DNA of 43,467 bases, taken from Candidatus Vecturithrix granuli (lineage in GTDB: Bacteria; Moduliflexota; Moduliflexia; Moduliflexales; Moduliflexaceae). This document shows positions 1 through 43,464 of this stretch, piece after piece. The DNA lies in NCBI GenBank assembly GCA_000739535.1, contig DF820474.1, forward strand, positions 6,799-50,265, in the 5' to 3' direction. The position numbers and the translations under genes were made by a program. The notes under the pieces are model-generated. The model was not told the DNA's origin. It was given only the letters and a program-made list of their open reading frames with translations, and made no database searches. How positions within the stretch are numbered: the stretch's first letter is position 1; every line of letters begins with the position of its first letter.

Positions 1-51
1 CTCCAGTTTCGCGGCTATCAACGATGCGCGAAACTGGAGTTTCGCGCTACA
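1..51 (+). repeat. Palindromic 5'-leader repeat, family A (left end cut by window)
   Basis: This is the right part of a 63-nt inverted repeat whose full copies lie at 14260-14322, 35601-35663, 41816-41878 and 43402-43464. The arms carry GCGAAACTCCAGTTTCGCG and its complement, and the element ends in CTACA. It is followed directly by TTTTCAGGGGAGGA, which is the Shine-Dalgarno site of the gene starting at 72. An ATG inside the right arm (24) is in frame with that gene and would add 16 repeat-encoded residues; the strong ribosome site argues against its use. Confidence 0.9.
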
Positions 52-71
52 TTTTCAGGGGAGGAAAATTT

Positions 72-7163: not shown

Positions 7164-9278
7164 ATGGCGATTGAACAAGAGATTGTCACTTGGTTAGAAC
7201 GACATAGCGACATTCTGGACCTTAAGGAAACGTCAGGACGCAAAGCATTCCTGTTTAAAGCAGATTTAACTGACCTTCAAAACAAGCTTAAACTGGAAGA
7301 AACCACCGCCATTTTTTGCAGCGACCTGGTGCAACGCCTTCGAAACTATGGCGCACTGTCCGATGGCCGCGATCCGCTGACTGCCGTGCTGGAAGCTGCA
7401 AAAACCATGGTGGGCCGCGACAAACAGGCAGAGTGCGATGCACTGATCGCCCGGCTGCAATCCGCGCCCCGGTCCCGGCAAGCAGGATGGCCCTCAACGA
7501 CGCCCCGCCATCTGCCCCCCATAGACGCATATTTTGTTGATCGGGAACAGCAATTAGCCGATCTGATGCGCGATCTCTATCCTGGAAAAGTGGTGACCCT
7601 TTGTGGCATGGGCGGAATTGGCAAAACCGCCCTGGCCGCGCAAGCGGCGCGGCAAATCGAACCGGAACGCTTTCCGGATGGCATTCTGTTCCATTCCTTT
7701 TACAAACAACGCGATCACAAGGTCGCCTTAGAATATATTGCCGCAACCTTCGGGATTGAGCCCAAACTGACACCGGAGAAAGCCGCGCAAATCGCCTTAG
7801 CAGGCAGACAGGCCTTACTGATTTTGGATGGCACAGAAGAAGCTGACGATTTGCGTCCAATTCTAAATGTACGGGGAACGTGTGGCGTGCTGATCACCAG
7901 CCGCAAGAAGCACGACGCGCTCCAAACGCGATTGAATCTATCTCCGTTAAGCCAACAATTCGCACTTGATTTACTCAATTCGTGGAGAGGGGCGCAAGGC
8001 ATGGATGCTGCCGCGCAACAGATTTGTGAAATCCTTGATGGACTTCCGTTAGCAGTCCGTCTGGTGGGACATTATCTGAGTGAAACGGGCGAACCGGCAA
8101 CTGAATACCTGGCGTGGTTAAAAACACAACCGTTTGACGCCTTAGATCGTGGCGACCATCGCGACGAAAGCGTCAAGGTGTTATTACGCCGGAGTGTGGC
8201 GCAACTCAGCGAACTTGCGAGGCAATCTTTAGCGGTTATTGGGCTGTTGGCGTTTGCGCCATGTGCGATTGAACCACTCGCCGCCGCGCTTGACTGTGAC
8301 ATCAGGCAATGCCAAACGGCAGCAGGCGAACTGGTCAATTTCGGCATCCTGCAAACGACCGCCGACCGGTATGAAATGTGCCACCGGTTAATTCATACCT
8401 ACGCGCAACACCAACTCCCATCTCCGCCAGAAGCTCTTGAACGCCTGGTCGCCTATTATCTCAATTTTATCAAAGAACAGCAACAACATGGACGTGCTGG
8501 TTATGCTCAAATGGATCCTGAACGTTTCCATCTAATGCAAGTGTTGGAAACCTGCCAGGAACGAGCAATGTGGTCATCGGTAAGCGTACTGGTTGGCAAG
8601 ATAGATACCTATTTAGACCGGCAGGGGTATTGGAGTGAACGGCAAGCCGCGCTGAAGATGAATCTGATAGCTGCTCACCAACAAGCAGATCAATCAGATG
8701 AGGCCTGGTGCGTCAACAATTTAGGACTCACGTGTTTGCATCGCGGCGATTACGCGACGGCCTTGACCTATTTGGAGCAGAGTTTGGCGATTCAACGCGA
8801 CATCGGCGACAAAGCGGGGGAAGGCACGACCCTGAATAACCTGAGCCAGATTTATGACGCGCGGGGCGATTACGCGACGGCCTTGACCTATTTGGAGCAG
8901 AGTTTGGCGATTCAACGCGAAATCGGCGACAAAGCGGGGGAAGGCGCGACCCTGAATAACCTGAGCCAGATTTTCAAAGCGCGGGGCGATTACGCGACGG
9001 CCTTGACCTATTTGGAGCAGAGTTTGGCGATCAGGCGCGAAATCGGCGACATCGCTGGAGTGTGCGCCACGTTGTTTAACATGGGGCATATCCATGTTCA
9101 GAACGAAGAATTGCAAGAAGCCCTCGAAGCGTGGGGCACAGTATACCGCCTCGCAAAACCGCGCAATCTGGCGCAAGCATTAGAGGCTCTGGACAATTTG
9201 GCCGGGCAATTAGGGCTTCCCGGCGGTTCGGAAGCATGGGAAAAGCTGGCTGCTGACATGGATGCAGCCATGAAATGA
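7164..9278 (+). CDS. STAND NTPase: NB-ARC with TPR repeats
   Basis: A 704-residue signal-transduction ATPase. Residues 1-100 are a small helical domain that may be an effector-associated adaptor (GRDPLTAVLEAAKTMVG...ALIARL). NB-ARC follows: Walker A GMGGIGKT (148-155), kinase-2 LILDG (219-223), sensor LITSRKK, and GLPL (293-296). A winged-helix-like region leads to TPRs; three near-identical 40-residue repeats with GDYATALTYLEQSLAI span about 528-632. Such proteins (the Avs and NLR-like class) bind an invader molecule through the repeats and oligomerise to trigger an effector. No nuclease or TIR is fused; the effector would be recruited. There is no clear Shine-Dalgarno site. It lies between Res and Mod. 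Confidence 0.9.
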   Translation: MAIEQEIVTWLERHSDILDLKETSGRKAFLFKADLTDLQNKLKLEETTAIFCSDLVQRLRNYGALSDGRDPLTAVLEAAKTMVGRDKQAECDALIARLQSAPRSRQAGWPSTTPRHLPPIDAYFVDREQQLADLMRDLYPGKVVTLCGMGGIGKTALAAQAARQIEPERFPDGILFHSFYKQRDHKVALEYIAATFGIEPKLTPEKAAQIALAGRQALLILDGTEEADDLRPILNVRGTCGVLITSRKKHDALQTRLNLSPLSQQFALDLLNSWRGAQGMDAAAQQICEILDGLPLAVRLVGHYLSETGEPATEYLAWLKTQPFDALDRGDHRDESVKVLLRRSVAQLSELARQSLAVIGLLAFAPCAIEPLAAALDCDIRQCQTAAGELVNFGILQTTADRYEMCHRLIHTYAQHQLPSPPEALERLVAYYLNFIKEQQQHGRAGYAQMDPERFHLMQVLETCQERAMWSSVSVLVGKIDTYLDRQGYWSERQAALKMNLIAAHQQADQSDEAWCVNNLGLTCLHRGDYATALTYLEQSLAIQRDIGDKAGEGTTLNNLSQIYDARGDYATALTYLEQSLAIQREIGDKAGEGATLNNLSQIFKARGDYATALTYLEQSLAIRREIGDIAGVCATLFNMGHIHVQNEELQEALEAWGTVYRLAKPRNLAQALEALDNLAGQLGLPGGSEAWEKLAADMDAAMK
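8745..9057 (+). repeat. Tandem 120-bp coding repeats (TPRs)
   Basis: Units starting near 8745, 8865 and 8985 are in exact 120-bp register and nearly identical at nucleotide level, including synonymous positions (for example GGCGATTACGCGACGGCCTT in each). This implies recent expansion or gene conversion rather than selection on protein alone. Confidence 0.92.
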
Positions 9279-9280
9279 AC

Positions 9281-9387
9281 GAAACTACACGGATTTGGTG
9301 TAGGAAGGATTCTCAGCAACAGAGTTCGGCGGCGCGCCGACCAGGTCGCCGTCAAGAATCCCTCCTACACCAAATCCGTGTAGTTTC
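9281..9387. repeat. Palindrome family B, long hairpin after the STAND gene
   Basis: GAAACTACACGGATTTGGTG on the left mirrors CACCAAATCCGTGTAGTTTC on the right. The stem continues through GTAGG-AGGATTCT pairing, and the centre contains GGCGGCGCGCCGACC. It begins 2 nt after the STAND stop codon and could act as an RNA stabiliser or a barrier to transcription. Confidence 0.9.
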
Positions 9388-9414
9388 CCAGGAGCAGGCG
9401 TTCACCCGCCATGA

Positions 9415-9487
9415 AACTACAGGAATTGATATATAAGCAAGAATGCTCTTCCGAATGATTCTTGCTTATATATCAATTCCTGTAGTT
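9415..9487. repeat. Palindrome family B, second hairpin before Mod
   Basis: AACTACAGGAATTGATATAT mirrors ATATATCAATTCCTGTAGTT, with an inner AAGCAAGAAT/ATTCTTGCTT stem and a short loop. It ends 8 nt before the methyltransferase start codon, leaving no room for a normal ribosome site. Confidence 0.9.
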
Positions 9488-12510: not shown

Positions 12511-12584
12511 CGTCCTGGAAGGACGGTTGACAATAGCCCACCGTTTCAACGGTGGGAAAGGCTTTGAGACCGGTCATTGATGGC
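12511..12584. repeat. Hairpin array and GCTTTGAGACC repeat, second copies
   Basis: CGTCCTGGAAGGACG (12511-12525) and CCCACCGTTTCAACGGTGGG (12537-12556) repeat the first two hairpins at 2511-2564. GCTTTGAGACCGGTCATTGA(TGGC) at 12561-12584 repeats 662-685 with one mismatch. These lie between the converging Mod gene and the Rnk-like gene. Confidence 0.85.
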
Positions 12585-13201: not shown

Positions 13202-14239
13202 TTATCTTGCCACACGGCCGGAGGCGTCTCCGGCCATAAGTTTTTCGGCTTCTTCGCGGCTAACCAGATTAAAATCGCCAAAAATCGAATGTTTCAAACA
13301 AGAGGCAGCCACGGCAAAATTAATTGTGCGCTGTAAATCGTCGCCGTAGGTGATTAAGCCGTAAATCAAGCCGGCCATAAACGCATCGCCGCCGCCGACG
13401 CGGTCAACAATGTGACTGACCTGATAGACCGGGGCCTGATACAGGGTTTTCCCGTCATACAAGATGCCGGACCAGGTGTTGTGGCTGGCGCTGATGGAGC
13501 CGCGCAGGGTGATGGCGACTTTCTTCAGATTCGGAAAACGGGCCACGAGTTTCTCCGCCACTTCCCGGTAGGCCGCCGCTTCGACTTTGCCGCCGGTTAC
13601 ATCCGCCTGTTCCGCTTTGATGCCAAAAACCTTTTCAGCATCTTCTTCATTGCCGATGGCCACGTCGCAATATTGCACTAATTCCGGCATGACTTCGCTG
13701 GCTGTTTTGCCCCATTTCCAGAGTTTTGCGCGGTAATTCAAATCACAAGAGACCGTCAAGCCCATGTCTTTAGCTTTCTTCACGGCTTCCAGACAGACTT
13801 TTGCCGGGCCTGCGGCAATAGCCGGCGTGATACCGGTCCAATGAAACCAGGTTGCCCCTGCAAACGCCTTTTCCCAGTCGATCATGCCAGACTCAATCGT
13901 GGCTAAGGCGGAATTGGCGCGGTCATAAATGACTTTACTGCCACGCTGCATGGCCCCCATTTCCAGAAAATAGATGCCGAGGCGGTCGCCGCCGCGTACA
14001 ATGTGCGATGTGCCCACGCCGAATTGACGCACAAAATTCAGGCAGGCGCTGCCTAAATCGTTTTTGGGCAAACGGGTAACATATTCGGTCGGAACGCCGA
14101 AATGCGCCAGGGAAACAGCCACATTCGATTCTCCGCCGCCAAAAACCACATCAAAGCTTCTGGCCTGTGTAAAGAGTTGAAATCCCGGAGGGGATAAGCG
14201 TAACATAATTTCTCCGAAACACACAACTTTTTGATTCAT
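13202..14239 (-). CDS. kdgK: 2-dehydro-3-deoxygluconate kinase (PfkB family)
   Basis: A 345-residue ribokinase-fold sugar kinase that phosphorylates KDG to KDPG with ATP. It begins KVVCFGEIMLRLSPPG, as KdgK proteins do, has the N-terminal GGGESNVAVSLAHFG substrate loop, and the PfkB signature DRVGGGDAF (279-287) with D285 as catalytic base. The start at 14239 follows AAGGAG by 10 nt; an in-frame ATG at 14287 lies inside the palindromic leader repeat and is rejected. KduI and KduD upstream on the same strand make KDG, which fixes the substrate with good confidence. A family A hairpin sits directly before its ribosome site, separating it from the YhcH-family gene. Confidence 0.92.
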   Translation of the reverse strand: MNQKVVCFGEIMLRLSPPGFQLFTQARSFDVVFGGGESNVAVSLAHFGVPTEYVTRLPKNDLGSACLNFVRQFGVGTSHIVRGGDRLGIYFLEMGAMQRGSKVIYDRANSALATIESGMIDWEKAFAGATWFHWTGITPAIAAGPAKVCLEAVKKAKDMGLTVSCDLNYRAKLWKWGKTASEVMPELVQYCDVAIGNEEDAEKVFGIKAEQADVTGGKVEAAAYREVAEKLVARFPNLKKVAITLRGSISASHNTWSGILYDGKTLYQAPVYQVSHIVDRVGGGDAFMAGLIYGLITYGDDLQRTINFAVAASCLKHSIFGDFNLVSREEAEKLMAGDASGRVAR

Positions 14240-14259
14240 AAAAATTTTCTCCTTAAAAA

Positions 14260-14322
14260 TGTAGCGCGAAACTCCAGTTTCGCGCATCGTTTACAGCCGC
14301 GAAACTGGAGTTTCGCGGTACA
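14260..14322 (-). repeat. Palindromic 5'-leader repeat, family A, before kdgK
   Basis: A full 63-nt copy: TGTAGCGCGAAACTCCAGTT opens the left arm and the right arm ends in GGTACA. On the minus strand it ends 20 nt before the kdgK ATG and is followed by TTTTTAAGGAG. Relative to the gene it has the same loop orientation as the copies at 1 and 35601. Confidence 0.95.
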
Positions 14323-35500: not shown

Positions 35501-35600
35501 AGCGGAACAAACGTATAAACGCTGACGATGATAATAGACAAATATGTATTTAATAGGAGCTATCATGAGCATAAGCTCACCCGGCATGATGAAAAACAGA

Positions 35601-35663
35601 TGTAGCGCGAAACTCCAGTTTCGCGGCTATCAACGATGCGCGAAACTGGAGTTTCGCACTACA
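35601..35663 (+). repeat. Palindromic 5'-leader repeat, family A, before the chemoreceptor
   Basis: Full 63-nt copy: TGTAGCGCGAAACTCCAGTT...GAAACTGGAGTTTCGCACTA. Preceded by ATGATGAAAAACAGA and followed by TTTTCAGGGGAGGA, the ribosome site of the gene at 35687. The same flanks occur around the copy at 41816 (left) and at 1 (right). Confidence 0.95.
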
Positions 35664-35686
35664 TTTTCAGGGGAGGATGAAATGAC

Positions 35687-38419
35687 ATGAAAAGCATCAA
35701 ATATACCATACTTGTCAGTTTTTGCACCATGGCGGCAATCAGTATTACCGCGTTAGCGGTCGTGATTTCAAACAAAATCAGTGAGAGCCTGTCAACCCAA
35801 GCCGAGCATCTCAGCGCCCAGATGACGCATCAGATTTATGAAACGCTCAATTTGCCCCATCAGACCTTTGAACTCTTGATGCGAGAAGAAATTCGCCGCA
35901 GCGTCAAGGAATTATGCGAGAACCCGGTGTTAATTGCCAATGCAGAATTGGGGCGACTGAATACCTTAAAAGCTGAACTTCAGTCCGCAGCCAGAAAGCA
36001 TGAATGGGATTTTGCGCTCTTGTTAAATTTAAAAGCCCAGTTACTGGCGTCATTTCCTTCAGATCTGAATGACTTCGAGATTGAAGCGTATCTGCACACC
36101 TGGGATGTTAGCGAGCTTCTGCATCGGATGGCCGCAGAACCGTCCAGAGAAGAAACAGCTATGTGGGATACCTTTACCCGGCAGAATCTCCAGGCCTTAC
36201 ATGTTCTCAAATTAGACACCCGACCTTTTCCCGCCGAGGGCGCACTCAGTAGTGTCGCTGCAAGCATTATCACAAATGATTTTGACGAACCCCTTGGCAT
36301 CTGTCTTGTCGGAAAATTGTTGAATGATTACGTGGAGCCGTTGGAACGGCTGCACAGAATTGCCGGCTATGCCAGCATCATCTATCTCGACGCCATCCCG
36401 ATTGTCCACGCCGGATTGATCGCTCCTGAAGATTCAGCGCGCGATTTTGCGCCACTCCCCATACCTGTGGAAATTCAGAAGCGTCTCCTGGACAGCTCCA
36501 AAAAACAAAGCCACCACGTGTTCACCTTTGCCGGAGTCCCTTATCTTTCCGCCTGTTCCCCGCTCTCCTCCTTTACTGGGAAACAGCTCGGCTTTCTGTG
36601 CATCGGGCTGCCTGAATCGCAAATTACAGACGCTCAACAAACCGTTCTTTCGTCAGGAATCGCCGCAAAGCAAGAGGTCCAGGCATGGATTGTGAACATT
36701 GGTGTGGTCTCCTTAGGTTTTTTTGCGTTCGCCTCTTTCCTGATCGCCGCGAACATTGTCAAACCGCTCAGGCAGTTGACCGACCGGGCCAACAAATTGG
36801 CCCGCGGAGATTTTCAGGAAGATCTGCGCGTGACGTCCAGAGACGAAATCGGAGCCTTGAGTCAGAGCTTGAATGAGGTGATGCACTCCTTCCGGGAGAT
36901 TGCCGCAACGTCCGAAGCGATCGCGCTGGGACACGTCCAACAGCAGGTGGTGCCCCGCTCAACAGAAGATGTGTTAGGTCATTCGTTACAATATATGGCG
37001 ACGTATCTCAGCGAAATGGCCTCTCTGGCCGACACGGTAGCCCGGGGCGATTTGACGCGCACCGTTCACCTGCGTTCACACGACGATAGCCTGGGACAGT
37101 CGCTCCAGGCGATGACCACAGGTTTGCGGTCATTGATTGAACAGATTCGAACCAGTGTGGAACAGTTGACCTCCACCGAAGACGATATCTCGTCGCTGGC
37201 AACTCTCAATATCGAGATTGTCAAAAACGTCCATACCGCCATCGCGCAGATGACTGCGACCATGACCGAAATGCAAAACAGCGTGGCCGCGGTGTCGGAA
37301 AATATGGATACGCTGAATGCGTCCGTGGAAGAAACCTCGTTGTCAGCTTCCCAGATGGAGGCTTCTATGGATCATATTGCTTCACACACACAGAACTTCA
37401 CCCGCCAGGCTCAGCACACCATGGACTTTGTTACCCAGGTCGTCTCTGCCCTGGAACAGATTCTGAAAAGCACGGCCTCGTCTCAACAGTTGTCACAAGA
37501 AACGATGCAGGAGGCGCGTGAAGGCCAGCAAGCCGTCAAACAGGTGATGAGCAGCGTCCAGACCATTCAACAGACGATCAGCATGGCCGTCGAAGCGATT
37601 ACGCAATTCGCGCACAGTTCTGAAGAAATTGACACCATTCTGGAGGTCATTCGAGACATTACCGACCAGACGTCGCTCCTGTCCCTCAACGCCTCCATTA
37701 TCGCGGCTCAGGCCGGAGAACAGGGCAGAGGTTTTGCGGTGGTGGCCGGGGAAATTAAGCATCTCTCCACAGGGGTGGCCGCTTCGACGAAAGACATCGC
37801 CCGGATTCTTCAAAATCTCCAGCAGAATACCAGCCGGATCGTGCAGGCGGTACATGAGGGCGCGGCCGATGTGAAGTGCGGACTGGAGCACACCATCCAG
37901 GCGCAAACCACCCTGGAACACATCACGACCAGCGCGGAACGGTCATCCGCTATCGTCGCTGAAATTGCAGAGGCGTTGCACAGTCTCATGCTGATGACGC
38001 ACCAGGTCTTTGCAGCAATGACAGAAGTGAATACGATGACCGCCGACATGATGACCACCATCAATGAACATCAAATCGGAACACGCCAGATTCACCAGGC
38101 GATCGCGCAAATCACTGACCTGTCATTTCAGGTTCAGCAAGCCTCGGCTGACCAATTGGCCGGAGTGCGTCATGTCCTTGACTCCGCACAGGATGTTGTC
38201 ATGCTGATGGATCACAATTTGGAAAGTTCGCAGCACGTTGTGCAGGTGGTCAAAGACCTCTCAACCCAAGCGGATCTCCTGTTAGATGCGGTTGACCGGT
38301 TTAAACTGAGATCTGAGCCTCAAAGGGCGCATCCTGTCCTGGCGCCCCAATATTCAAGAGGAGGAAGGACGTTCATGGACCTCAAAGTGAACATGAACGT
38401 CCCCGCTTCTCCGGTATGA
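35687..38419 (+). CDS. Methyl-accepting chemotaxis-like receptor with atypical tip
   Basis: A 910-residue transmembrane receptor: TM1 (about 7-29), periplasmic sensor to about 335, TM2 (VNIGVVSLGFFAFASFLIAA), HAMP (KPLRQLTDRANKLARGDFQE), then a second HAMP-like repeat (MASLADTVARGDLTRTVHLR) and a long coiled coil with the signalling hairpin. The tip reads DQTSLLSLNASIIAAQAGEQ (660-679). Against Tsr, N376 is S663, E385 is I672 and R388 is Q675, positions used for trimer and CheA/CheW contacts. GGGAGGA lies upstream of the ATG. No cheA, cheW or other che gene is in the window. It may signal to the adjacent STAS, GAF and GGDEF proteins instead. Confidence 0.9.
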   Translation: MKSIKYTILVSFCTMAAISITALAVVISNKISESLSTQAEHLSAQMTHQIYETLNLPHQTFELLMREEIRRSVKELCENPVLIANAELGRLNTLKAELQSAARKHEWDFALLLNLKAQLLASFPSDLNDFEIEAYLHTWDVSELLHRMAAEPSREETAMWDTFTRQNLQALHVLKLDTRPFPAEGALSSVAASIITNDFDEPLGICLVGKLLNDYVEPLERLHRIAGYASIIYLDAIPIVHAGLIAPEDSARDFAPLPIPVEIQKRLLDSSKKQSHHVFTFAGVPYLSACSPLSSFTGKQLGFLCIGLPESQITDAQQTVLSSGIAAKQEVQAWIVNIGVVSLGFFAFASFLIAANIVKPLRQLTDRANKLARGDFQEDLRVTSRDEIGALSQSLNEVMHSFREIAATSEAIALGHVQQQVVPRSTEDVLGHSLQYMATYLSEMASLADTVARGDLTRTVHLRSHDDSLGQSLQAMTTGLRSLIEQIRTSVEQLTSTEDDISSLATLNIEIVKNVHTAIAQMTATMTEMQNSVAAVSENMDTLNASVEETSLSASQMEASMDHIASHTQNFTRQAQHTMDFVTQVVSALEQILKSTASSQQLSQETMQEAREGQQAVKQVMSSVQTIQQTISMAVEAITQFAHSSEEIDTILEVIRDITDQTSLLSLNASIIAAQAGEQGRGFAVVAGEIKHLSTGVAASTKDIARILQNLQQNTSRIVQAVHEGAADVKCGLEHTIQAQTTLEHITTSAERSSAIVAEIAEALHSLMLMTHQVFAAMTEVNTMTADMMTTINEHQIGTRQIHQAIAQITDLSFQVQQASADQLAGVRHVLDSAQDVVMLMDHNLESSQHVVQVVKDLSTQADLLLDAVDRFKLRSEPQRAHPVLAPQYSRGGRTFMDLKVNMNVPASPV

Positions 38420-38431
38420 TGAAGGCGATGT

Positions 38432-38490
38432 GTACCGACGGACAGCCTTGTCCACAGAGGAGTTCGGCGGACAAGACTGTCCGTCGGTAC
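38432..38490 (+). repeat. Leader hairpin before the STAS-like gene
   Basis: GTACCGACGGACAGCCTTGT pairs with ACAAGACTGTCCGTCGGTAC. It is preceded by CCGGTATGATGAAGGCGATG and followed by TACTTTTAAAGGAG, so it occupies the same slot as family A hairpins but has a different stem. Its GGACAGCC-TGTCC core resembles the repeat at 6150. Confidence 0.85.
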
Positions 38491-38516
38491 GGGTACTTTT
38501 AAAGGAGAAATGAACT

Positions 38517-38915
38517 ATGGAATTATTTGAAAATGAATATGTCAAGCTGTCAATTGACAAAAATGTTCCCTGTTTAGAATGGATTGGCAAGAAGTACATG
38601 CCATCGAAAGAATTCAGAGCCTCTGAAGAGAAAAGTGTACAACTATATTGTGAATATAAAAATATCTACCCTCAATTGGAGTGGTTTGTTGACGCTCGCG
38701 ATATAGGACCCATCGCCCCTAAAGACACGCAATGGGTGGTCAATGAAATTCTTCCGCACTTTGCCACAGCCGGTTTGACAAAAGAAGGATTTGTGGTTCC
38801 CAAAAACGTGTTAGGAAAAATGACCGTCAATTACTACACATCAAGAGTCGGGAAAATCATAGAAATTCGGATTTTTGAGACCGTTACAGCGGCAAAGAAT
38901 TGGCTGAAAGCCTAG
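38517..38915 (+). CDS. SpoIIAA/STAS-like protein
   Basis: A 132-residue protein resembling the STAS/SpoIIAA-like family: MELFENEYVKLSIDKNVPCL and EWIGKKYMPSKEFRA, then WFVDARDIGPIAP and IRIFETVTAAKNWLKA. Such proteins are single STAS-like alpha/beta folds that bind partners, often in signalling clusters. AAAGGAG lies 9 nt before the ATG. It has no obvious phosphorylatable serine motif. It stands between the chemoreceptor and the GAF protein on one strand. Confidence 0.7.
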   Translation: MELFENEYVKLSIDKNVPCLEWIGKKYMPSKEFRASEEKSVQLYCEYKNIYPQLEWFVDARDIGPIAPKDTQWVVNEILPHFATAGLTKEGFVVPKNVLGKMTVNYYTSRVGKIIEIRIFETVTAAKNWLKA

Positions 38916-41764: not shown

Positions 41765-41815
41765 CAGAGGAACTGTCATGAGCTGACGCTCCCTCGGTAT
41801 ATGATGAAAATCAGA

Positions 41816-41878
41816 TGTAGCGCGAAACTCCAGTTTCGCGCATTTTTGACAGCCGCAAAACTGGAGTTTCGCGCTACA
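41816..41878 (+). repeat. Palindromic 5'-leader repeat, family A, before tolC-like gene
   Basis: Full 63-nt copy with the loop in the opposite orientation (CATTTTTGACAGCC) to the copies at 1, 35601 and 43402. Preceded by ATGATGAAAATCAGA and followed by TTTTCATAGGAGGA. The gene begins at 41901. Confidence 0.95.
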
Positions 41879-41900
41879 TTTTCATAGGAGGATACTCGTT

Positions 41901-43343
41901 ATGAAACGATCTCTGTTGGTAAGATTACAATTTGTTCTGATGGCAACCTTGTTACTCGTCATCATCTCCGTTGGCGTAGGAGCGCAAGAAAACTTGACTT
42001 CCGAATGCACAAAGGTCATCCGCATCACCAGCCTCGAAGAATGCCTGAAACTTGCGTTTGAGCAGAACCGGCAACGCCAGGTCTCGCGCGCGGCCATCGC
42101 GCGCGCCGAAGCGCAGCATCAACAAGCCCTGTCGTCCTATTGGCCGCAGGTGACGGCGACTCTATCAGCGAGCCGGCGCGATGAAGATAGTAATTTTCTG
42201 TTTCCTGAAGAGATTTCGACATATAACATCGCGGGTTTGGCTCCGCTGCCGATGGACGTCACGGTACGTGTCCCGGAAAAAGATGTGAAACATCTTGATC
42301 GCGATTTGTTCGCGGGTTCACTCAATTTCCTGTACCCGCTCTATACCGGCGGAAAACGGAGAGCAGTGGTCAAACAGGCGGAGCTTGGCGTCCACATCGC
42401 CGAAGAATCGGCTCGGCGCACCGATCTCCAGATTCTCTATGACGTGAAGCGGATGTATTACGGCAAGATTTTGGCAGCCAGGCTGCGAGCGCTTGGTCAG
42501 GAAACATTGGAACGGCTGCAGGCGACGCAGACCTTGACCGAACAACTGTATCAAACTGGAACCGGGGCAGTGAAAAAAACCGATTACCTGCGGACGAATA
42601 TGATGGTCTCGACTGCACGTTCGCTCGTTGAATTCTTGCGATCGAATGACGATCTGGCAACTGCGGCCTTGATCAATGTCCTGGGATTCCCCTGGGATAC
42701 CCATCTGGAACTGACTGACGCCGAGATTCCTTTTATTCCATTGAGCGCGGAGGTACATGATCTGGTGGCCGAAGCCTACCAATTCAGTCCGGATTGGGGT
42801 CAGTTCGAATTGGCGCTCGCAGCCGCCGAAACCAGCATCCAGCAAGCAAGGGGCGGACATCTGCCAACCATTGCGCTCACCGGTGATCTCACCTATGTAG
42901 CAAAGACTTACGATTCCGGGCTGATGAGTGATCAGAACCGCAACTCCTGGACCGTGGGCGTGGCCCTGGAACTGCCTATCTTTACCGGATTTCGAACGAC
43001 CCAACAGGTCAAAGAAGCGCAGTCCCGGGTCGAGCAACTGCAACACCAACAAATGTTGCTCAGCGAAGGGATCGCTCTGCAAATCCAGGATGCTTTCTTG
43101 CAAATAGATCGCGCCCGCGGACAGGTCGAAGCCCTCCAGGAATCGGCGACGTTTGCGACTGAAAATCGGGAACTGAATATCCGGGCGTATCAGAATGATC
43201 TGGTGGAAACCCGTGAAGTTCTTGAAGCGCAACTGCTCGAAGCGTTTATCAAGGGCCAGCATCTCAAAGCTCTGTACGATCATGCGATTAGCCGGGCCTT
43301 GCTGGATTGGTTGATTGGACGTGAAGTGGCAAAACGATTGTAA
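41901..43343 (+). CDS. TolC-family outer-membrane efflux/secretion channel
   Basis: A 480-residue outer-membrane factor. Residues 1-28 are a signal peptide ending near VGVGAQ. The rest has the two-fold TolC repeat: SLEECLKLAFEQNRQRQVSR with YWPQVTATLSASR, and later FSPDWGQFELALAAAETSIQ with HLPTIALTGDLTY, and long periplasmic coils (RVEQLQHQQMLLSEGIALQI). It forms a trimeric duct for an RND, ABC or MFS pump. AGGAGGA lies 10 nt before the ATG. No pump or adaptor is in view; a leader hairpin at 43402 suggests the next gene starts just past the window. Confidence 0.93.
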   Translation: MKRSLLVRLQFVLMATLLLVIISVGVGAQENLTSECTKVIRITSLEECLKLAFEQNRQRQVSRAAIARAEAQHQQALSSYWPQVTATLSASRRDEDSNFLFPEEISTYNIAGLAPLPMDVTVRVPEKDVKHLDRDLFAGSLNFLYPLYTGGKRRAVVKQAELGVHIAEESARRTDLQILYDVKRMYYGKILAARLRALGQETLERLQATQTLTEQLYQTGTGAVKKTDYLRTNMMVSTARSLVEFLRSNDDLATAALINVLGFPWDTHLELTDAEIPFIPLSAEVHDLVAEAYQFSPDWGQFELALAAAETSIQQARGGHLPTIALTGDLTYVAKTYDSGLMSDQNRNSWTVGVALELPIFTGFRTTQQVKEAQSRVEQLQHQQMLLSEGIALQIQDAFLQIDRARGQVEALQESATFATENRELNIRAYQNDLVETREVLEAQLLEAFIKGQHLKALYDHAISRALLDWLIGREVAKRL

Positions 43344-43401: not shown

Positions 43402-43464
43402 TGTAGCGCGAAACTCCAGTTTCGCGGCTGTCAACAATGCGCGAAACTGGAGTTTCGCGCTACA
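43402..43464 (+). repeat. Palindromic 5'-leader repeat, family A, at the right edge
   Basis: Full 63-nt copy with the loop GGCTGTCAACAATGC in the same orientation as at 1 and 35601. It is followed by TTT, where other copies continue TTTTCAGGGGAGGA and an ATG, so a plus-strand gene very likely starts within about 25 nt of the window end. Confidence 0.95.

Follow-up and report, generated by a model that had tools for sequence, protein, structure and literature searches.

The palindrome that recurs in the window, the 43,467-nt stretch of DNA analysed here, belongs to a known kind of mobile element, the REPIN, in which two REP palindromes with GTAG/GTAC tags face each other in inverted orientation. 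In this genome, most REPINs carry a short tail containing a Shine-Dalgarno (SD) sequence on one side only, and most of them stand directly before the start codons of functionally unrelated genes. The explanation we favour, with a probability of roughly 0.6, is that REPINs moved by a RAYT settled 5' of SD sites and that the spreading unit gained a 13-nt SD tail, ATTTTCAnnGGAG, which would serve the downstream gene. If this is true, it shows how the translation of genes scattered over a genome can be rewired at one stroke. REP elements usually lie at the 3' ends of genes; that placement is inverted here, and the copies offer a natural library of hairpin-SD leaders for asking how 5' structure sets expression.

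REPIN copies in the window

The first-pass annotation had listed five copies of the palindrome, at 1, 14260, 35601, 41816 and 43402. All five were found as a 61-nt palindrome with a REPIN body of the form GTA[G/C]...[C/G]TAC, the second copy lying on the minus strand and the others on the plus strand. Copy 1 is cut by the window edge, so that its 3' part (1..50), which matches the other copies, is followed by the tail ATTTTCAGGGGAGGA with its SD (51..65) and then by the start codon of a DinB-family gene at 72. Copy 2 (GTACCGCG...CGCGCTAC, 14261..14321, minus strand) has a diverged tail, ATTTTTAAGGAG (14249..14260), preceding the start codon of a KDG-kinase-like gene at 14239; an extra AAGGAGG lies immediately upstream of this REPIN. 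In copy 3, a head module, AGGAG-CTATC-ATGAGCATAAGCTCA-CCCGGCATGATGAAAAACAGAT (35555..35601), with its own SD, an ATG at 35565 and a mini-hairpin at 35566-35579, leads into the REPIN (GTAGCGCG...TTTCGCACTAC, 35602..35662) and the tail ATTTTCAGGGGAGGA (35663..35677, SD at 35672-35676), after which a chemoreceptor gene begins with ATG at 35687. Copy 4 is built in the same order from a diverged head module (AGGAACTGTCATGAGCTGACGCTCCCTCGGTATATGATGAAAATCAGAT, 41768..41816), a REPIN (41817..41877) with its loop inverted relative to copies 1, 3 and 5, and the tail ATTTTCATAGGAGGA (41878..41892) before the ATG of a TolC-like gene at 41901. Copy 5 (43403..43463) is followed by ATTT and then by a contig assembly gap.

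The distances from REPIN end to start codon are ~21, 21, 24 and 23 nt for the DinB, KDG-kinase-like, chemoreceptor and TolC-like genes, respectively. Domain matches of these genes (PF05163 DinB; PF00294 PfkB and KDG-kinase models; PF00015/PF00672 MCP; PF02321 OEP) bear out the earlier statement that four copies closely precede functionally unrelated genes. The sequence outside the palindrome had also been described as conserved, and the flanks do align, with 85% mean column identity over 122-126 nt; the far-side ATGATGAAAA(A/T)CAGAT seen at 35601 and 41816 proved to be the end of a longer conserved head. A different palindrome had been reported inside the same outer frame at 38432, and this too was confirmed. 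The whole unit spans 38410..38507 on the plus strand, where a head remnant, CCGGTATGATGAA, and a tail, TTTTAAAGGAG (38497-38507), enclose the hairpin GTACCGACGGACAG...CTGTCCGTCGGTAC (38432-38490) ahead of a start codon at 38517. Further, a plus-strand array at 9282..9487 joins two other hairpin families (CTACACGGATT.. and CTACAGGAATT..) through a short AGGAG-bearing linker that ends in ATGAAA.

Folding of the leader RNA of the copy 3 cassette gave a z-score of -7.8, and none of the window cassettes matched an Rfam family above the gathering score. Elsewhere in the window, three matches to Acido-Lenti-1 RNA (Rfam RF01687) fall at 2511-2582 and 12511-12556, in dispersed palindromic repeats flanking helicase and DNA-methylase-like genes. 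The end of an NB-ARC-like ATPase gene holds three 120-nt tandem repeats of TPR-like units (8742-9101).

REPIN anatomy and copy number in the genome

The source genome comprises 21 contigs totalling 8.38 Mb, and its contamination is estimated at 10.75%. Genome-wide, the REP core (up to two mismatches) matched 398 times in the forward and 400 times in the reverse direction, whereas the reversed control matched 2 and 1 times. Because the core and its reverse complement differ by only two bases, every REP is scored once per strand, which puts the actual total at about 400 REP units. Finer counts come from a first sample of 1.59 Mb and an enlarged sample of 2.79 Mb with 2144 genes called by a purpose-made hexamer-based caller; this is about a third of the genome, partly chosen for holding REPs, and its gene starts are predicted rather than annotated.

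The 143 REPs of the first sample resolve into 64 doublets and 15 singlets. Most of them carry a 5' tag of the GTAG type (126/143; GTAGC in 77, GTACC in 49), and 52 of the 64 doublets are inverted (+/-) pairs at a spacing of 33 (38 doublets) or 35 (14 doublets). The elements are extragenic: only 2 of 79 lie inside called genes, and 1 of 74 when other gene calls were used. The enlarged sample holds 84 REPIN doublets. Identification of the palindrome as a REPIN refines the earlier reading of it as a cassette.

A one-sided Shine-Dalgarno tail before genes

The 13-nt tail (up to two edits) is present on one side only in 74 of the 84 REPINs in the 2.79 Mb; 54 of these tails are exact and 16 differ by one edit (70 within one edit), and a tail on both sides was never seen. 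It points toward a gene in 65 of the 74 copies, where random placement and orientation in the same gaps gave 40.9 ± 3.7 with a maximum of 53. In codirectional gaps, it faces the downstream gene 51 times and points away from it three times. The first-pass annotation had named a lack of start-codon bias, or flanks that do not align beyond the palindrome, as grounds for rejecting its reading, and neither was found. The bias is strong: 44 of the 74 REPINs have their end no more than 35 nt from the start codon they face, against 9.3 ± 2.5 at random and a maximum of 19 in 4000 runs. Removing the ribosome-site term from gene calling left 38 such copies against 9.2 ± 2.5. Of the 50 codirectional copies that face a gene, only 9 are 35 nt or less from the stop codon upstream.

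The GGAG of the tail is mostly 5-9 nt from the start codon, the genome's own spacing peaking at 6-9, and it probably serves as the working SD of the downstream gene. The nine copies that face no gene, in themselves a point against the favoured explanation, all keep the tail, seven of them exactly, so the tail belongs to the element. A general ribosome-site context of this genome was rejected as its source, since TTTCA..GGA lies upstream of 22/31 gene starts with a REPIN and of only 14/1146 without one. Similarly, TTTCANAGGAG (TTTCANAGGAG) with an ATG 3-9 nt further on was counted 202 times here, head ATGs being included along with gene starts, versus 4, 5 and 2 times in three further genomes from the phylum. 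The 3' end of the genome's own 16S was looked for and not found, which counts against the favoured explanation.

The genes downstream of REPINs are functionally mixed. They include genes for a prismane protein, an ABC transporter, an FAA hydrolase, an alcohol dehydrogenase, a cupin, an N6-methylase, a corrinoid protein, a peptidase M20, an aldo/keto reductase, amidohydrolases, AFOR, an aminotransferase, an aldolase, and LeuD-like and malic-enzyme-like proteins. The two AGGAG copies, one on either side, were not claimed as a target-site duplication; by eye, the neighbouring base disagrees between the sides.

Exchangeable hairpins in a shared frame

About half of the REPINs are preceded by a 44-nt head, nAGGAGTTGTCATGAGCnnnnGCTCACCCGnCnCAATGAA, with its own SD-ATG and mini-hairpin. 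A profile search found 68 heads in the 1.59 Mb and 104 in the 2.79 Mb, and 57 of the first 68 lie between genes and point toward one on the same strand. The head pattern (at most one mismatch) occurs 118 times genome-wide and is absent from both the control and the relatives. What follows the head varies among the 104 units: a REPIN of the window family in 46; hairpins of the CTACAGGAA/CTACAAGGAT type in 33, a loosely defined class in which two related families are probably combined; a second REPIN family in seven; CCGGACA hairpins in five; a GTAGTAGCC hairpin in three; and others in ten. A tail comes after the hairpin in 88 of the 104. The description of the leader as modular was thus apt, the same head and tail enclosing hairpins of several families, and the units sometimes stand in tandem arrays. 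Further, 17 of 72 scored copies have the REPIN loop turned round with respect to the tail; as the loop occurs in either orientation, frame and palindrome are separate modules. Collectively, the three parts (head, REPIN and tail) act as modules that can be separated, a point against the favoured explanation.

An alignment of 24 full cassettes spans 128 columns, with 85% identity. The TGAAA at the end of the head is complementary to the TTTCA at the start of the tail and lengthens the stem (columns 37-41 with 117-121, 92.5% paired). Covariation in the main stem did not exceed that of shuffles and is uninformative, because the stems hardly vary. An alternative head stem, CGGG/CCCG, was rejected, with 55% of its cells paired and no covariation. 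Tandem ~104-bp units mixing GCGAAATTGTATTTCGC and TCGAAACTGGAGTTTCGA palindromes were also observed in a convergent gap at ~34.2-34.5 kb of contig C13 (locus L117).

Relatives and orthologous sites

Neither the REPIN nor the head occurs in the three other genomes from the phylum, and the exact head and REPIN patterns were found in none of 84,980 species genomes, a set that may leave out very near relatives. The one exact REPIN-tail pattern searched in viral contigs was not found there either. Two orthologous sites were compared. In a same-family genome, the gene upstream of leuD is conserved and the intergenic region is plain, versus a headless REPIN here; the hcp orthologue in that genome is likewise without an insert. 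The SD regions resemble each other at both sites (ATGTTCATAGGAGGCCAATG here versus GGTTGAGAGGAGTGAAGCATG in the relative for leuD; ATTGACAAAGGAGG versus TTTGAAAGGAG for hcp). For copies with imperfect tails, this likeness of ~10 bases each hints at insertion just 5' of a native SD. Orthologues of the malic-enzyme-like and AFOR genes were not found in the relative, and in a self-BLAST for empty sites within the genome the matches were swamped by repeats.

These sites bear on the earlier proposal of a mobile or gene-converted leader cassette that brings a hairpin plus SD. A dispersed cassette with a hairpin and an SD is what was found. The two comparisons, both of headless copies with imperfect tails, hint that some copies did not bring their SD, as the SD region there resembles the native one of the relative.

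Alternative explanations

The same two sites speak for the view that these are ordinary REPINs with a target preference, whose RAYT inserts beside T-rich SD sequences, so that the tail would be native target and no part of the element. Imperfect tails in 9 of 26 headless copies agree with this, as do the left junctions, which in headless copies are sharp at GTA[G/C]. However, exact tails are kept by copies that are convergent or face backward and are also found between tandem units at a distance from any start codon, and the tail motif is nearly absent from the other ribosome sites of the genome (the 14/1146 above) and rare in relatives; we consider target preference unlikely. If the copies had instead spread through gene conversion or through recombination among intergenic repeats, with the start bias reflecting selection that kept only SD-preserving events, this would account for the tandem arrays, the exchange of hairpins within one frame and the inverted loops. 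Yet it needs an initial dispersal step for the ~200 REPINs before unrelated genes, which share no flanks and have the sharp GTA[G/C] junctions, and it likewise seems to us unlikely.

Intrinsic terminators or attenuators, in which the hairpin plus ATTTT would end upstream transcripts, seem improbable. A single weak terminator-like match was obtained on the gene strand (35640-35657; shuffles average 0.4), but it uses only an inner 7-bp stem and a T run of four, and the tight gaps around several cassettes (4-12 nt past the upstream stop codon, ~20 nt before the next start codon) require read-through. Control of the leader by a CsrA-type protein bound at AGGA sites between hairpins, or by a leader peptide started at the head ATG, is very improbable. 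Although nAGGAG motifs recur, csrA was rejected because PF02599 is absent from the genome, the same search being positive in three control genomes. In the window, the head ATG does open a 41-codon frame through the REPIN (35565-35690), the TGA of which overlaps the chemoreceptor start at 35687 (ATGA), but head frames range from 2 to >100 codons, with three codons or fewer in 16 of 68, and the leader peptide was rejected for this lack of conservation.

Proposed mechanism and known systems

In the favoured explanation, REPINs of this lineage would have inserted mainly immediately 5' of SD sites, and the spreading unit would have come to include a 3' tail on which the downstream gene relies as its ribosome site. 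Roughly every second copy sits in the larger unit of SD-ATG/mini-hairpin head, exchangeable hairpin and SD tail, which also forms tandem arrays. Once transcribed, such a unit would place a ~26-bp hairpin ~10 nt upstream of the SD. The short gaps just described are too narrow to hold another promoter; the hairpin must therefore be transcribed there, as part of a putative 5' leader, and transcription reads through. The likeliest effect would be that the hairpin insulates the ribosome site from upstream RNA and provides an RNase III/RNase E processing point, setting the gene apart from its neighbour upstream. RNase III could plausibly act on a stem of ~26 bp, which has been proposed for Correia/NEMIS hairpins (PMC2229807). 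Whether a transposing hairpin with its own SD went further and replaced the native ribosome site of at least 100 unrelated genes, giving them interchangeable hairpins within a fixed SD-hairpin-SD frame, a common leader and a shared post-transcriptional handle, is a more tentative proposition, with the odds somewhat against it.

The elements share tagged palindromes, inverted doublets, extragenic placement and hundreds of copies with the REPIN/RAYT system (Bertels & Rainey 2011, PMC3116915; PMC3733652), together with tandem clusters that have repeated flanks and, here for a RAYT-like gene, flanking REPs from a sister family. Unidirectional REPs are reported near the 3' end of the upstream gene, at a varying distance from the downstream gene (PMC3733652), whereas the copies here mostly abut the downstream start and bear a one-sided SD tail. 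They are thus a variant of REPINs located at 5' gene ends, supplying or flanking the SD, in place of the published 3'-end placement. Correia/NEMIS elements of Neisseria and ERIC elements of Yersinia are likewise small mobile hairpins in transcribed intergenic regions, and for some of them processing by RNase III or RNase E, with an effect on neighbouring mRNA, is reported; they differ in ends and sequence and, as described there (PMC2229807), act by RNA processing, not by supplying an SD at fixed spacing. Correia elements are also described as acting through promoters (PMC2649163). The TAACTGA repeats of giant Beggiatoaceae are similarly dispersed, toward and beside the start codons of functionally unrelated genes, but they are direct repeats of 7 nt that have no hairpin and bear little resemblance to an SD; most genes downstream of them are without a recognisable SD (PMC4679880). 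The literature searched held no report of a mobile element that brings a ribosome-binding site at working distance from the starts of many genes. Mobile elements that bring promoters or terminators are well known.

A RAYT-like transposase

The REPINs were most likely moved by a RAYT-type Y1 transposase of the same genome. Twelve Y1 transposase matches were found, and one of these proteins, encoded on contig C13, matches the model of REP-associated tyrosine transposases (NF047646, E 1.5e-20; PF01797), with a score of 73.6 that is below the NCBIfam cut-off of 80. Sister REPs, GTACCGCGAACCTCCCGGTTCGCG, lie on either side of its gene; their core departs from that of the window family at four positions, and no exact window-family REP was found within 1.5 kb of any of the 12 Y1 proteins. 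The low score, the differing core and the lack of exact REPs nearby weigh against the favoured explanation. At this locus (L062 1020-1960; C13 ~26.0-26.9 kb), several sister REPs stand on each side of the RAYT-like gene, and the last of them is followed by ATGGAGAATTATG, directly before the start of the next gene. Elsewhere in the genome, a long CRISPR-like array with the repeat GTTTCAAACCCTTCCAGGGATTATTCCGCGTTTCTAC occupies ~45-59 kb of the plus strand of contig C14 (L113-L115); its offsets of 200935-214470 refer to the minus strand of a 260-kb stretch, the coordinates having been taken from the reverse-complemented stretch.
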